Shown here: positions 6,251 to 13,967 of the stretch, in pieces
Numbering within the stretch: the stretch's first letter is position 1
Layout: each line of letters opens with the position of its first letter
From: an uncultured Clostridia bacterium
GTDB lineage: Bacteria > Bacillota > Clostridia > Oscillospirales > Acutalibacteraceae
Direction of reading: 5' to 3'
Length of the DNA: 64,000 bases
NCBI GenBank assembly: GCA_947585745.1
Contig: CANPXF010000001.1
Span: 1-64,000 of the forward strand
Program-made: the position numbers and the translations under genes
Notes under the pieces: generated by a model
What the model was told of the DNA's origin: nothing
The model's database searches: none
What the model saw: the letters and a program-made list of their open reading frames with translations, nothing else

Positions 6251-6916
6251 TCACCACTCCTCGTTTATTTCCTCAATAATGTTTTTTAATTCCCTTAAAT
6301 TTTCCGCAACCCTGTAAACCTTTTTTACGGTTTCCAAATCGGGCTTATCCATATCGGGCGCCATAACGGTCACACATCCCGCCGAGCTTGCGGACTCAAC
6401 TCCGTTGGGACTGTCCTCAACCGCAATACACTCATTTTCGTTAAAGCCGAGCCTTTTCGATGCGAATTTGTAAATATCGGGCGCGGGCTTTCCGTTTTTC
6501 ACCATTGAGGCGGATATAAGCTCGTCAAAATAATCATAAAGTCCCGCCCGTTTCAGGTATTTTTGAGTGCGCTCGGGCGGTGTTGCCGTCGCAACCGCCG
6601 TCTTGTAGCCGTGCCTTTTTAAATATTTTAAAATTTCCTCGGCAAAGGGTTTTACTTCTATCCCGTTTTCCTCAACATATTTGTTCATAAGCTCAATCCG
6701 CTTGTTCCTTACGGCGTCATAGTCAAAATCCTTTCCGAAAAAGCCCTGTAGTTTTTCTACGGCAAACTTCCGCGCCATACTTCGGATTGCGAGGGCGTGC
6801 TTTTCCTCGAACGGATAACCGCAGGCTCTGCCCGCCTCGCACCAGAAACGGACATAAAGCTTTTCGCTGTCGAGAATAACGCCGTCCATATCAAATATCA
6901 CAGCCTTAATTTTCAT
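6251..6916 (-). CDS. HAD-superfamily phosphatase, phosphoglucomutase-like
   Basis: 221 residues. Motif I is VIFDMDGVILDSE, the nucleophile Asp plus acid Asp. Motif II is ATATPP, the lysine of motif III is in KNGKPAPDIY, and motif IV is AVEDSPNGVESA. The cap insertion after motif I and the GVILDSE signature place it with beta-phosphoglucomutase-like phosphatases; substrate unknown. Start at MKIKAVIF (6916) with GGTGAG upstream. This start overlaps the 3' end of the DMT gene by 11 nt, which indicates translational coupling. Confidence 0.9.
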   Translation of the reverse strand: MKIKAVIFDMDGVILDSEKLYVRFWCEAGRACGYPFEEKHALAIRSMARKFAVEKLQGFFGKDFDYDAVRNKRIELMNKYVEENGIEVKPFAEEILKYLKRHGYKTAVATATPPERTQKYLKRAGLYDYFDELISASMVKNGKPAPDIYKFASKRLGFNENECIAVEDSPNGVESASSAGCVTVMAPDMDKPDLETVKKVYRVAENLRELKNIIEEINEEW

Positions 6917-7835
6917 TTTTCTCACCGTTATTCCGTACATTAACGAGAACAATTCCCGCCGTTATTAAAGCTAACGAAACGAGATTTTCGATTTTCAAAA
7001 TCTCCTCGCCGAGCAAAACAAAGCTCCACACGGTTCCGAAAATCGGCACAAGCATTGTAAAAACCGTAATTCGGCTTACGGGATTGTACTTTAAAAGCGC
7101 TGTCCAAAGCAGAAAGCTGACGGAGGATATAACCGCAAGCCAAAGGAGAATAATAATCCCCGATAAATCGGAAAAATTCGTTTTACCGCCGAAAATAAGC
7201 CCGATAATCAGAAGTATAACTCCGCCTGAAAAAAGCTGAAATGCTGTCAGGGAAACGGGATTTTTTCCGTCGGAGATTTTTTTCGTGATAATATTTCCGC
7301 CCGCCCCGCTGACTGCGGATAAAAGAACGATTATATCGCCCAAAAACGTCACGGAGGCAAACGAAAAATCGGCGATATTCACGCAGACTATTCCGAAAAG
7401 TCCCAAAAAACAGCCGATAATTTTCAATAAATTAAGCCTGTCGTTTTTAAAGAAAAAGCTCGCCATTAAAACTGAGATTACAGATACCGTTCCCGTAATT
7501 ATCGAGGTGTTCACGGCGGTTGTAAATCCCACTCCGACATACGCGAAAAGATATTGGAGCGTTGTCTGAACAACTCCCAACGCAGACGCGGGCAAAAGCT
7601 CATTTTTCCCTAAAATCGGCGGTTTTCTCAAAATAATCAACCCGAAAACGAAAACCAAAATCCCAGCAAGCGCAAATCTTTCTCCCGCAAAAAGAAGCTT
7701 TGAGGGTATATCGGACTGCATAATATCAAGCCTTGCATACCCGAGTTTAATAATCGGGAACGCCGTGCCCCAAAGGGCAGAGCAAACGAACGCTCCGACA
7801 TACGCGAAGTATTTATTTTTGAGCAGACTTTTCAT
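6906..7835 (-). CDS. EamA/DMT-family transporter
   Basis: 309 residues with about ten predicted membrane segments in two EamA repeats; it opens with ALWGTAFPIIKLGYA, typical of the drug/metabolite transporter superfamily. Probably an exporter of small metabolites or amino acids. Its ribosome binding site (GGTGA) starts right after the U-tract of the upstream sseB terminator, leaving almost no room for a separate promoter. Expression may therefore depend on read-through or on a promoter inside the terminator region. Confidence 0.9.
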   Translation of the reverse strand: MKSLLKNKYFAYVGAFVCSALWGTAFPIIKLGYARLDIMQSDIPSKLLFAGERFALAGILVFVFGLIILRKPPILGKNELLPASALGVVQTTLQYLFAYVGVGFTTAVNTSIITGTVSVISVLMASFFFKNDRLNLLKIIGCFLGLFGIVCVNIADFSFASVTFLGDIIVLLSAVSGAGGNIITKKISDGKNPVSLTAFQLFSGGVILLIIGLIFGGKTNFSDLSGIIILLWLAVISSVSFLLWTALLKYNPVSRITVFTMLVPIFGTVWSFVLLGEEILKIENLVSLALITAGIVLVNVRNNGEKNEN

Positions 7836-11085: not shown

Positions 11086-11166
11086 TTTTCGTCAGCCATT
11101 TCATTTTCAATTGTATAGAATGTCGAACTATTGTAACCCCACTTATACTGTTTGATTTATTTGTTA

Positions 11167-11195
11167 TTGACAAATTGCTTTCTGCATAATATAAT
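11167..11195 (+). promoter_or_regulatory. Consensus sigma-A promoter of zinc-ribbon gene
   Basis: TTGACA (11167-11172), a 17-bp spacer and TATAAT (11190-11195), an exact match to the consensus. The start codon is 25 nt past the -10, behind AAGGAGG. Confidence 0.85.
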
Positions 11196-11219
11196 TTTTT
11201 AAAAAAGGAGGTTGTTGTT

Positions 11220-11756
11220 ATGCCAAAACACGAAACATATTATTGTCCGTATTGCGGTGAAACCATTAGGGGTTTTGAATACGAGAAATTTCCAAACTCG
11301 AGTAGTTTCAAATTCTGCCACGGATGTGGCTCTGAACCAAATTTTCAACCCCTAAAGCATGATAATTTATGGTACCAGGATAAAGCTGAAGAAGAGTATA
11401 AAGAAAAGTATGGTGAAAATTGCAATTTCAGCTTTATGGAAAAAGTGGAGATAGAATTGAAAATAGAAGATTTAATACGTGATAAAGAAATAGAATCAAA
11501 CCCGCTTTTTAATCCTGAAAAAAAAGAGATTCGCATAAAAAAAGCAAACGAATTGCGTACAGAATTATATTATGAGGAAAAAGCAAAACGCGAAAAAAGG
11601 GCGAATGAAAATAGCCCCAAATGTCCAACTTGTGGCTCAACCAACATAACTAAACTCACAGCCACAAACCGTCTTGTTCACGGTGCAGCGTTTGGCTTGT
11701 TCAGTAAAACTGCCAGGTCTCAGTGGAAATGTAAGAACTGTGGTAACAAATGGTGA
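11220..11756 (+). CDS. Double zinc-ribbon protein
   Basis: 178 residues. An N-terminal zinc ribbon (CPYCGE ... CHGCGS, residues 9-38), a charged helical middle rich in Lys and Glu (about 55-130), and a C-terminal ribbon, CPTCGSTNITKL then WKCKNCGNKW. The C-terminal half with RLVHGAAFGLFS resembles zinc-ribbon proteins often found in phage and mobile-element cargo. The call of Zn binding is from the four CxxC pairs; function is unknown. Its own promoter is a perfect consensus and its base composition is more AT-rich than the neighbours, consistent with acquisition. It ends ten bases before the promoter of the structured RNA. Confidence 0.75.
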   Translation: MPKHETYYCPYCGETIRGFEYEKFPNSSSFKFCHGCGSEPNFQPLKHDNLWYQDKAEEEYKEKYGENCNFSFMEKVEIELKIEDLIRDKEIESNPLFNPEKKEIRIKKANELRTELYYEEKAKREKRANENSPKCPTCGSTNITKLTATNRLVHGAAFGLFSKTARSQWKCKNCGNKW

Positions 11757-11766
11757 TGCATCCGCA

Positions 11767-11795
11767 TTGACTTCTTTTTATTTCTAATTTATAAT
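11767..11795 (+). promoter_or_regulatory. Near-consensus promoter of structured RNA
   Basis: TTGACT (11767-11772), a 17-bp spacer and TATAAT (11790-11795). Predicted start of transcription is about 11802. No open reading frame with a ribosome binding site follows for 750 bp on this strand. Confidence 0.8.
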
Positions 11796-11801
11796 ATCCA
11801 T

Positions 11802-12540
11802 AGGCGTTTCCTTTCTTAACCTGCATTCGTTTTGACGACTTGACCGCTCTCGGTCAAGAAATGAGCGAACCTTATGGTACAAATAAAGACTCAGGTCAAA
11901 GTGCGTGTCCGCGTTAGAACAACGACACGTACACAAGTTGTCATTAAGCGTCCTAAATAACGTTTAGAGGTAGATGTTACGGCATCTGCCTCGTTTTTAT
12001 TGATACGTTCTATCACCCTTGTATCATAGGGCAAACATACACGATAGTATAAGATAGATTTATACTTGTAAATTAACCGTCGTGTTCGGCTAGTCCCGAG
12101 CGCATCTTATTATAGCATCGTTTCATATAACTATAACCGCCTGTTGTCGCTACTGTGAGGGCTTGTCTCAGAAAGACCTGTCCCTGCTGACCCTTGTAGC
12201 GTAACATTGTCACAACCCTATTCTCGTTGCCGAGAGAGGGGAGTAGTTACGGTGTAACAAGTTCCCAGCATATTGAGGCTCAGCTTGATTTCCTTAATTT
12301 ACAAAGTCTGAAAATCAAACAGGGATTTATAATCCGTTCAAACTAATGTATTTCATTAGCCGTAATATCTAAACTGTTCGTATCCGAACAGAACTATTAT
12401 TACTATCGGCATATTCATTATTTGAGGGCAAACATTGCGGAAATATAAAATTTTCAATACTTAACAAATAATTCTTAACAAAAACCCGAATGTATCTTTT
12501 CTGTCCAAGGTCGGACAGAAAAAACATTCGGGAATTTTTA
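11802..12540 (+). ncRNA. Putative large structured noncoding RNA
   Basis: A gene-free stretch of about 730 nt between a near-consensus promoter and a strong terminator. Stems I can read directly: 11839-11846/11851-11858 (8 bp), 11901-11909/11924-11932 (9 bp, one G-U), 11967-11976/11983-11992 (10 bp, one G-U), 12001-12006/12021-12026, 12046-12052/12060-12066, 12148-12153/12196-12201, 12216-12240, 12343-12348/12354-12359 and 12374-12380/12385-12391. Both G-U pairs work only on the + strand, which fixes the sense. Loop UUACGG (11977-11982) is the exact complement of CCGUAA (12360-12365), a possible long-range contact. Size and style recall the ROOL, GOLLD and OLE classes, but I cannot assign a family. 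The 3' end could be earlier than the terminator. Confidence 0.72.
12485..12539. terminator. Bidirectional terminator, RNA and NfnB gene
   Basis: Outer stem CCCGAATGT / ACATTCGGG (12485-12493, 12524-12532) encloses an inner CTGTCC / GGACAG stem. It is followed by AATTTTT on + and by TTTTTGTT on -, so it can end both the structured RNA and the nfn operon. Confidence 0.85.
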
Positions 12541-12554
12541 ATTATTTAATTATT

Positions 12555-13967
12555 TTACGCCTTGCTTTTTATGTACTCGTCAATTGCGCCTGCCGCGGTT
12601 TTTCCCGCTCCCATAGCAAGAATTACGGTTGCCGCTCCTGTTACTGCGTCACCGCCCGCGAATACTCCCTCTCTGGAAGTCGCGCCGTTTTCGTCCGCGA
12701 TTATTCCGCCCCAACGCTGTGTGTCAAGTCCCTCGGTCGTGGACTTAATGAGCGGATTAGGCGACGTGCCTATCGCGATAATAACCTCGTCGACATCGAG
12801 CACAAACTCACTGCCCTCTATCGCAACGGGTCTGCGTCTACCGCTTTCGTCAGGCTCTCCAAGCTCCATTTTAATACATCTCATACCGTTAACGGAACCA
12901 TCCTCATCGGATAAAATCTCAACGGGATTGTTCAAGAGCTTAAAGATAACGCCCTCCTCCTTAGCGTGTTCAACCTCCTCTTTACGGGCAGGAAGCTCCT
13001 CCTCGCTTCGGCGGTAAACTATATAAACATCATCGGCTCCCAAACGCTTAGCGCAACGGGCCGCGTCCATAGCGACGTTTCCTCCGCCGACTACCGCCAC
13101 CTTTTTGGCGTGATTAATCGGTGTGTCGGGGTTATCTTTATAAGCTTTCATAAGATTCGTACGTGTTAAAAACTCATTCGCGGAAAATACTCCGTTGAGA
13201 TTTTCACCAGGAATTTTCATAAATCTCGGAAGTCCCGCGCCCGAGCCGATAAATACCGCCTCAAATCCCATTTCGTCCATAAGCTCATCAATGGTAATCG
13301 TACGTCCGATAATCGTATTTGTTTCGATTTTTACGCCGAGCGCCTTTAGTCCGTCAACCTCTTTTTGCACAATGGACTTAGGAAGTCTGAACTCGGGAAT
13401 ACCGTACACAAGAACTCCGCCCGCGAGATGAAGCGCCTCGAAAACGGTAACCTCGTAGCCTTTTTTCGCCAAATCGCCGGCGCACGCAAGACCTGCGGGA
13501 CCCGAGCCGATAACGGCTACCTTGTGTCCGTTTGATTTGATTTTCTGAATTTTTGTATCTGATTTTGAGTTGTGGTAATCCGCGACAAAACGCTCTAATC
13601 TTCCAATACCGACAGGCTCGGTTTTTATACCGCGCACGCATTTTCCCTCGCATTGGGTTTCCTGCGGACAAACGCGTCCGCACACGGCGGGAAGCGAGCT
13701 TGACTGAGCGATAATATCGTACGCCTTGTCAAAATCACCCTTCGCCACCTGCGATATAAAGTCGGGAATCTGAATATTTACTGGACATCCCGAAACGCAG
13801 GGCCTGTGCTTGCAGTTAAGACAGCGCTGAGCCTCATCAACGGCTGTTTCCTCGCTGTAGCCCAAAGCAACCTCAAGAAAGTTTTTGTTTCTGACATTTG
13901 GCTCCTGAGAAGGCATTTCATTCTTTTTCGGTGACATATTCGGCTTTCTCTTAGATACTTCAGCCAT
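12555..13967 (-). CDS. NfnB / GltD-like FAD-iron-sulfur oxidoreductase
   Basis: 470 residues. An N-terminal ferredoxin-like helical domain has two 4Fe-4S cysteine sets (CLNCKHRPCVSGCP and CGRVCPQETQCEGKC), then come two Rossmann folds: VIGSGPAGLACAGDLA for FAD and VVGGGNVAMDAARCA for NAD(P). Usually annotated as glutamate synthase small chain, but the partner encoded immediately upstream makes it the large subunit of electron-bifurcating NADH-dependent ferredoxin:NADP oxidoreductase (Nfn). ATG at 13967 is preferred: AGGAGG lies nine bases upstream, inside the end of the partner gene, while a TTG at 13976 would leave no spacing. Confidence 0.9.
   Translation of the reverse strand: MAEVSKRKPNMSPKKNEMPSQEPNVRNKNFLEVALGYSEETAVDEAQRCLNCKHRPCVSGCPVNIQIPDFISQVAKGDFDKAYDIIAQSSSLPAVCGRVCPQETQCEGKCVRGIKTEPVGIGRLERFVADYHNSKSDTKIQKIKSNGHKVAVIGSGPAGLACAGDLAKKGYEVTVFEALHLAGGVLVYGIPEFRLPKSIVQKEVDGLKALGVKIETNTIIGRTITIDELMDEMGFEAVFIGSGAGLPRFMKIPGENLNGVFSANEFLTRTNLMKAYKDNPDTPINHAKKVAVVGGGNVAMDAARCAKRLGADDVYIVYRRSEEELPARKEEVEHAKEEGVIFKLLNNPVEILSDEDGSVNGMRCIKMELGEPDESGRRRPVAIEGSEFVLDVDEVIIAIGTSPNPLIKSTTEGLDTQRWGGIIADENGATSREGVFAGGDAVTGAATVILAMGAGKTAAGAIDEYIKSKA

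Follow-up and report, generated by a model that had tools for sequence, protein, structure and literature searches.

A group I intron family of phage tail tape measure genes and its probable damaged copy in a Clostridia genome

What is encoded in about 750 bp of DNA that hold no reading frame, begin with a promoter-like sequence and fold strongly? This question is raised by positions 11767-12540 of the stretch analysed here, which comprises 64,000 nucleotides and is called the window in the following. The first-pass annotation had answered it with a large structured noncoding RNA on the plus strand, and the basic observations behind this view were reproduced: no open reading frame of at least 80 amino acids occurs on either strand of 11757-12554, a promoter-like TTGACT-17-TATAAT at 11767-11795 (+) agrees with the consensus in 11 of 12 positions, and the plus strand of 11802-12545 folds better than 20 out of 20 shuffled sequences (z = -7.26). 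The minus strand of the same segment likewise folds better than its shuffles (z = -4.41). We agree that a large structured RNA is encoded here, but its sense, its unit and its class were read differently in our analysis. The minus strand from about 12436 to 11124 is very probably a damaged copy of a group I intron, belonging to a family that resides in the tail tape measure gene of phages. The edges of the window copy were set on the 3' side from P9.0, the terminal G and an exon-2 remnant, and on the right side by comparison with relatives and with the same-genus genome G159. Its predicted parts are as follows.

11124-12436 (-): 5'-truncated group I intron including an antisense cargo gene; right edge good to a few bases
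12405-12416 (-): internal guide GAAUAU-GCCGAU (P10 half and P1 half); the matching 5' exon is absent in the window
12362-12403 (-): P2 with a hairpin at 12377-12388, from covarying columns
12276-12279 (-): P3 5' strand GCCU, pairs with AGGC at 12139-12142
12185-12270 (-): P4 (12266-12270 with 12185-12189), P5 (12257-12261 with 12193-12197) and P5 extension
12159-12184 (-): P6 (12182-12184 with 12159-12161) and P6a (12175-12177 with 12165-12167)
12148-12155 (-): P7 5' strand CAGUAGCG, pairs with CGCUCG at 12097-12102
12153:12098 (-): predicted guanosine-binding pair G:C in P7
12139-12142 (-): P3 3' strand AGGC, from covariation
12109-12137 (-): P8 (12131-12137 with 12109-12115)
12097-12102 (-): P7 3' strand CGCUCG
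12091-12096 (-): P9.0 5' strand GGACUA, pairs with UAGUUC at 11125-11130
11967-11992 (+): terminator-like hairpin ahead of the conserved core, from the terminator scan
11220-11756 (+): zinc-ribbon protein gene, the antisense cargo, with zinc-ribbon Pfam matches at or under the cut-offs
11167-11195 (+): promoter-like TTGACA-17-TATAAT before the zinc-ribbon gene, 12 of 12 positions
11124-11130 (-): intron 3' end UAGUUCG with terminal G at 11124 and 3' splice site 11124/11123; same end in relatives
11100-11123 (-): 24-nt exon-2 remnant of the tape measure gene, TFYTIENE (compare IFKTIEDE in L005)

Pattern scans detected the core in 41 further contigs, i.e. phage contigs and Clostridia genomes. 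Judged true were the matches in 20 of 20 viral contigs and in 21 of 28 genome contigs, the latter being named Lachnospiraceae, Ruminococcus, Ruminococcaceae, Acetatifactor, Eisenbergiella, Clostridiaceae, Clostridia and one bacterium without group name; L022, L024-L026, L027-L030 and L032 and the genome matches L051, L052, L062, L064, L068, L070 and L073 were rejected as chance. Together with the window, the family set comprises 42 contigs and 43 entries (L005 and L060 lie on the same contig), three contig pairs being near-identical. It must be mentioned that the main search pattern included both strands of P7. A P7-free scan returned 17 contigs, 16 of them known already, and the single new one (L089) has nearly the same P7. 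Apart from the window's own genome, the DNA search of 161 genomes of its genus detected the core in a single one, G131 (L005), and the additional matches in G159 and G077 represent flank rather than core. The covariance model of the family, R1, detected among these 161 genomes only the window's genome (G000) and G131, and gave matches in 4 of 391 genomes of the class, including the window's own and two with weak matches. At the level of the taxonomic family, the DNA search matched 2 of 398 genomes, while DNA searches of phage records gave one 32-base match (E 0.8) and those of plasmid records none. The window core scores 208.8 bits against R1 at 12088-12281, a value to be read with the fact that the window is one of the 35 rows of this model.

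The secondary structure was evaluated on an alignment of 35 rows (A3), from which L060, L071, L046, L047, L036 and L033 had been left out as duplicates or degenerate copies, and L067 and then L059 were dropped. Homologues with compensatory changes, the check proposed with the first reading, were indeed found. Across the 48 pairs of P3, P4, P5, P6, P7 and P8, 96.0% of the cells are paired (shuffles 73.0%), both partners changed in 39 pairs (shuffles 27.0), and the covariation score amounts to 0.571 (shuffles 0.155; at most 0.080 when the partners were slid). In P3, double changes affect 4 of 4 pairs at 99.3% pairing, and the helix also ranks at the top of the covarying columns; in P8 they affect 7 of 7 pairs at 100% pairing. 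P6a covaries as well, P6 is invariant, and P5 (columns 28-32) pairs in just 77.1% of the cells. P3 and P7 cross each other as a pseudoknot, with P4-P6 and P8 present, and this crossing is a mark of group I introns. P7, of the form C(N)G(N)AGCG with CGCUCG, is paired in 35 of 35 rows with one of its six pairs covarying (C-G 33, A-U 1, G-C 1), an invariance that is partly explained by the presence of P7 in the search pattern; in the weak relative L087, AAUG/CAUU replaces the AGCG/CGCU part (by eye). The register of P7 was set from the covarying pair 204:266 and the comparison with L095, a further R1 match (41.3 bits) at the same tape measure site, whose P7 reads GACUA/UAGUC. Accordingly placed, the predicted guanosine-binding pair 206:265 is G-C in 35 of 35 rows. 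The same two observations excluded an A:U pair at this place, which would have pointed to an adenosine cofactor; a review describes such a change as not observed in nature (PMC9971707).

The plus sense had been deduced from G-U pairs in the window, and here the relatives speak for the opposite strand. When read as minus strand, the helices without P7 contain 68 G-U against 25 A-C cells in the 35 relatives, 12 of the G-U and 15 of the A-C cells falling in the loosely aligned P5. The clearest single pair, 222:254, is G-U in 22, C-G in 12 and U-A in 1 of 35 rows, which on the plus strand would become A-C in 22 rows. Among 34 hand-picked well-paired pairs the ratio is 46 to 2, although this choice itself excludes A-C, and among strand-neutral column pairs taken by raw covariation (39 pairs that are at least half Watson-Crick among the top 80) it is 67 to 49, a noisy value that leans to the minus strand, not strongly. 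Because of these counts and the splice sites described below, we regard minus as the functional sense; the plus sense was rejected on the G-U versus A-C counts of the relatives.

The proposed unit of 730 nt (11802-12535) has to be revised, too, since the conserved core covers about 12088-12416 instead. The hairpin taken as its own terminator (12487-12535) is visible in the plus-strand fold and absent from the list of the terminator scan; it is shared with G159, a genome without the RNA, and hence belongs to the flank of the neighbouring gene gltD. A single plus-strand transcript is also contradicted by the terminator-like hairpin 11967-11992 with its T-run, which would cut it before the core, and by eye such hairpins precede the core in L005, L035 and L038 as well. 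The two strands of the suggested kissing loop, UUACGG (11977-11982) and CCGUAA (12360-12365), are located as claimed, but the loop sits in this unconserved terminator-like hairpin. For the first 200 nt of the proposed plus-strand RNA, BLAST yielded nothing significant in the relatives that were compared. As a separate observation, the promoter-like site 11767-11795 lies just past the stop codon of the zinc-ribbon gene and is followed by hairpins and the terminator-like 11967-11992, possibly giving a plus-strand transcript of approximately 190 nt.

Regarding the class, ROOL, GOLLD and OLE are large structured RNAs of Firmicutes or phages. The element described here differs from them by the opposite strand, the intron anatomy and the lack of an Rfam match, and neither these nor other Rfam families could be retained as candidates on the basis of Rfam. 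The search over the whole window returned nothing at gathering scores, and with E-values up to 5 the matches in 11500-12800 covered only the right-hand hairpin and its neighbourhood. The group I model RF00028 missed the core even at loose E-values in the loci tested (none in L021, L042, L041, L066, L071 and L086, nor at the core of L023), and the group II domain V model RF00029 did not match in the window. A previous report doubted that one Rfam alignment could cover the diversity of group I introns (PMC6125680). The family shares with the group I introns of RF00028 the U.G in P1, P10, P9.0, the terminal G, the P3/P7 pseudoknot, P4-P6 and P8; it deviates by an extra bulge inside P7 (column 207, 33 of 35 rows) and by the core being unmatched in the loci tested. 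Conversely, R1 matches an Rfam-recognised group I intron in L088 over P4-P5 only (28.7 bits, compared to 72.9 bits with RF00028). This contig contains group I (1356-1658) and group II (2801-2894) matches, both on the minus strand, within 1.5 kb.

Several known systems resemble the family. Cluster J mycobacteriophages are reported to have group I-like introns in structural genes, too (the LittleE capsid gene and a tail gene of BAKA), with exon 1 ending in U, the intron ending in G and splicing verified by RT-PCR; in the case of LittleE, the opposite strand bears an endonuclease frame (PMC3706429). Their hosts, genes and sites are different ones, and the likeness is based on the description. IStrons likewise combine a group I intron with passenger genes in Firmicutes, but the passengers are IS transposases, whereas the tape measure family carries zinc-ribbon and other genes, mostly antisense (PMC4227781). 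An IStron-like element was observed in the same tape measure gene as the family intron of L023 (6704-7038 and 7193-8726, both +), where an Rfam group I intron (73.8 bits) adjoins IS200-like and OrfB_IS605 transposase genes. The Bastillevirinae phages have group I introns as well, many outside the current subgroups, in core genes of nucleotide and DNA metabolism rather than in the tape measure gene (PMC11878797). The kind of element, a group I intron, is well known. The novelty might lie in the family, in the site that it occupies and in its being missed by the Rfam model, a tentative statement as to the literature: we recognised no description of an intron at this tape measure site in the literature searched, most subscription journals being outside its scope.

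The host gene was identified from the flanks. In L021, L023, L031, L034, L035 and L038 the RNA lies between two long minus-strand reading frames, and wherever both flanks are readable they represent the halves of a tape measure protein split after KNVG-like codons. The N-terminal half reaches KNVG and then enters the insert, while the C-terminal half opens with IFKTI or similar. PHROGs tape measure families match the N-halves of L038 and L031 and the C-half of L005, the same profile (phrog_4211) being matched at 388-944 by the N-half of L031 and at 959-1533 by the C-half of L005. Nine loci can be joined in frame upon removal of inserts of 722 to 3069 nt, and L056 represents a tenth in-frame join with an insert of just 354 nt. 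Furthermore, intronless tape measure proteins span the junction, for example P0178 with SFKNVG/IFTTLDNEL and P0188 with FQGVG/LFTTIEDEATKSG, which reads QGVG/LFTTIEDE at the junction. When the joined L058 protein served as query, the best match spanned the junction in 55 of 189 matching proteins and covered exon 1 only in 64 and exon 2 only in 70; the best junction-spanning matches are gap-free at the junction, those further down are looser. The search for intronless alleles gave 10 matches in 7 of 48 genomes, none extending more than 9 residues across the junction, and several of these sites hold other intron-like inserts. Taken together, the reading frames place the intact relatives within the tape measure gene of Clostridia phages and prophages, directly past KNVG or near-variant codons.

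Other insertions were observed in the same gene. At the tape measure site or close to it, L090, L091, L094, L096 and L097 hold inserts that resemble introns and show P1-like guide pairings; Rfam gave no group I match for them, and R1 a weak match or none. A homing-endonuclease-like reading frame (PHROGs HNH/homing endonuclease) occupies another gap of the tape measure gene in L021 (5836-6774), and a similar second gap occurs in L033 after MRIRG. In L101 (G003:C75, 3435-4234), from the same genus as the window, the tape measure gene is broken after KNFG and a zinc-ribbon gene lies in the gap; neither R1 nor the Rfam group I model matched this insert.

At the 5' splice site of group I introns, U.G and C.A are allowed pairs. 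P1 was found at this site in 39 of 43 entries, with U.G in 31 and C.A in 8 cases; the conserved U-G is described in the IStron report (PMC4227781). Nine different exon hexamers are matched by the guides, and exon and guide change together. P1 is absent in the window, in L005 and its duplicate L060 and in L071, and in L072 it is only 5/6 paired; the automatic picks for L031, L053 and L057 were corrected by eye, and that for the window was discarded as spurious. The 3' side shows P10 (GAAUAU/AUAUUC in L044, L076, L077 and L056, GAAAA/UUUUC in L035) and P9.0 between the bases after P7 and the intron end (GAACUA/UAGUUC in L042, GUACU/AGUAU in L077). Exon 2 is preceded by a G in all 9 entries (8 distinct) in which its start was located by the protein motif. 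The automatic scan for 3' splice sites gave weak or no candidates for many loci, and candidates were used only where a tape-measure-like protein came next; for L048, L054 and L076 the scan required a terminal G and an open frame, so these features are not independent there. The window retains the terminal G, P9.0 with 6/6 and P10 with 5/6 pairs (by eye).

From these pairings, we suggest that the intact relatives follow ordinary group I splicing, with predicted catalysis by the intron itself. The guide GCCGAC would pair with the end of exon 1 to form P1, the guanosine held in P7 would attack after the U (or C) at this end, and the end of exon 1 would then attack past the last G of the intron, aligned by P9.0 and P10. 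The product would be an uninterrupted tape measure protein (KNVG-IFKT).

In most introns, the part between the core and the 3' splice site contains cargo genes, often in antisense orientation. Both ends were located in ten introns; their longest ATG frame of at least 80 amino acids is antisense in six (L031, L035, L042, L048, L058 and L077; in L042 the antisense frame has 98 amino acids), sense in two (L054 and L076) and absent in two (L044 and L056). The zinc-ribbon protein was confirmed by family search in the window and, beside the core, in L005 of G131; lookalikes were seen by eye in L021, L035 and others, with the C-terminal motif in L021 and L035. L037 encodes, past the core and in the same sense as the intron, a GmrSD_N protein that is a candidate cargo. 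With its perfect promoter match, the zinc-ribbon gene of the window may still be expressed. A more far-reaching idea, which we consider unlikely, is that the family forms a separate unlisted group I subgroup at one codon-precise tape measure site and that the recurrent antisense zinc-ribbon protein is a mobility factor unlike the known homing endonucleases.

The window copy itself has kept the core, the guide and the 3' splice site, followed by 24 nt of exon 2; near 12436 it has lost the 5' splice site together with the beginning of the intron. A functional intron requires both splice sites, and the window has one of them; because a 5' splice site and exon 1 are missing, no splicing in cis is expected for this copy. 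In the genome G159, the match to the window ends at 11107 and resumes at 12438, 117 unmatched nucleotides lying in between, and positions 11100-11107 of the exon-2 remnant overlap this common flank. Probably, part of a phage tape measure gene arrived as a DNA fragment and was captured between two chromosomal genes, and the intron now probably lies as a fossil beside gltD, presumably inactive. The copy in G131 is also without its 5' part, so that neither of the two copies detected in the window's genus is intact. A second exon-2 remnant, adjoining a zinc-ribbon gene, was observed elsewhere in the window's genome (L100, G000:C6:80000-92781, at 6820-7605).

How do other explanations compare? An ornate plus-strand noncoding RNA transcribed from its own promoter to its own terminator, whether of the ROOL, GOLLD or OLE type or of a new class of cage-like RNAs, would account for the strong fold (z = -7.26), the promoter-like sequence (11/12) and the 750 bp free of reading frames. 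Nevertheless, we consider it extremely improbable: there is no Rfam match, the G-U versus A-C counts of 68 to 25 favour the minus strand, the right terminator also occurs in a genome without the RNA, the hairpin 11967-11992 would stop the transcript before the core, and the guide and splice-site pairings would be left without a role. One could also accept the minus-strand RNA but assign it another task, the insert being excised from the phage DNA or the two tape measure halves acting separately. It is in agreement with this idea that many C-halves are recorded as proteins starting near the junction; for the C-half of L044, 137 of 141 aligned homologues start at most 40 amino acids from it, the 141 being aligned among the 176 matches listed, which are close relatives from a listing capped in number and limited by length. 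However, P1, P10, P9.0, the terminal G and the exchange of U.G and C.A are splicing features, and intronless homologues are contiguous, which makes this explanation highly improbable.

A last alternative concerns the window copy only, which could still be useful to its host, for instance as a trans-splicing ribozyme or a regulatory RNA. Its complete core reaches the top score of the copies listed (208.8 bits, with the window in the model). But its 5' exon and 5' splice site are missing, on the minus strand it follows gltD and a terminator hairpin, and R1 found only G131 besides it in 161 same-genus genomes. Hence, a host function appears very unlikely, and the damaged intron copy remains our preferred reading of this locus.

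For the window, the apparent new giant RNA is in all likelihood a broken intron viewed from the wrong strand. Beyond this locus, an intron family missed here by the group I model of Rfam interrupts a key tail gene in phages of the gut. It seems that gene callers annotate exon 2 as a separate gene, and as 137 of the 141 aligned C-half homologues start near the junction, many of the recorded tape measure proteins are probably halves. The R1 model together with the splice rules would enable annotators to find and join these tape measure halves.
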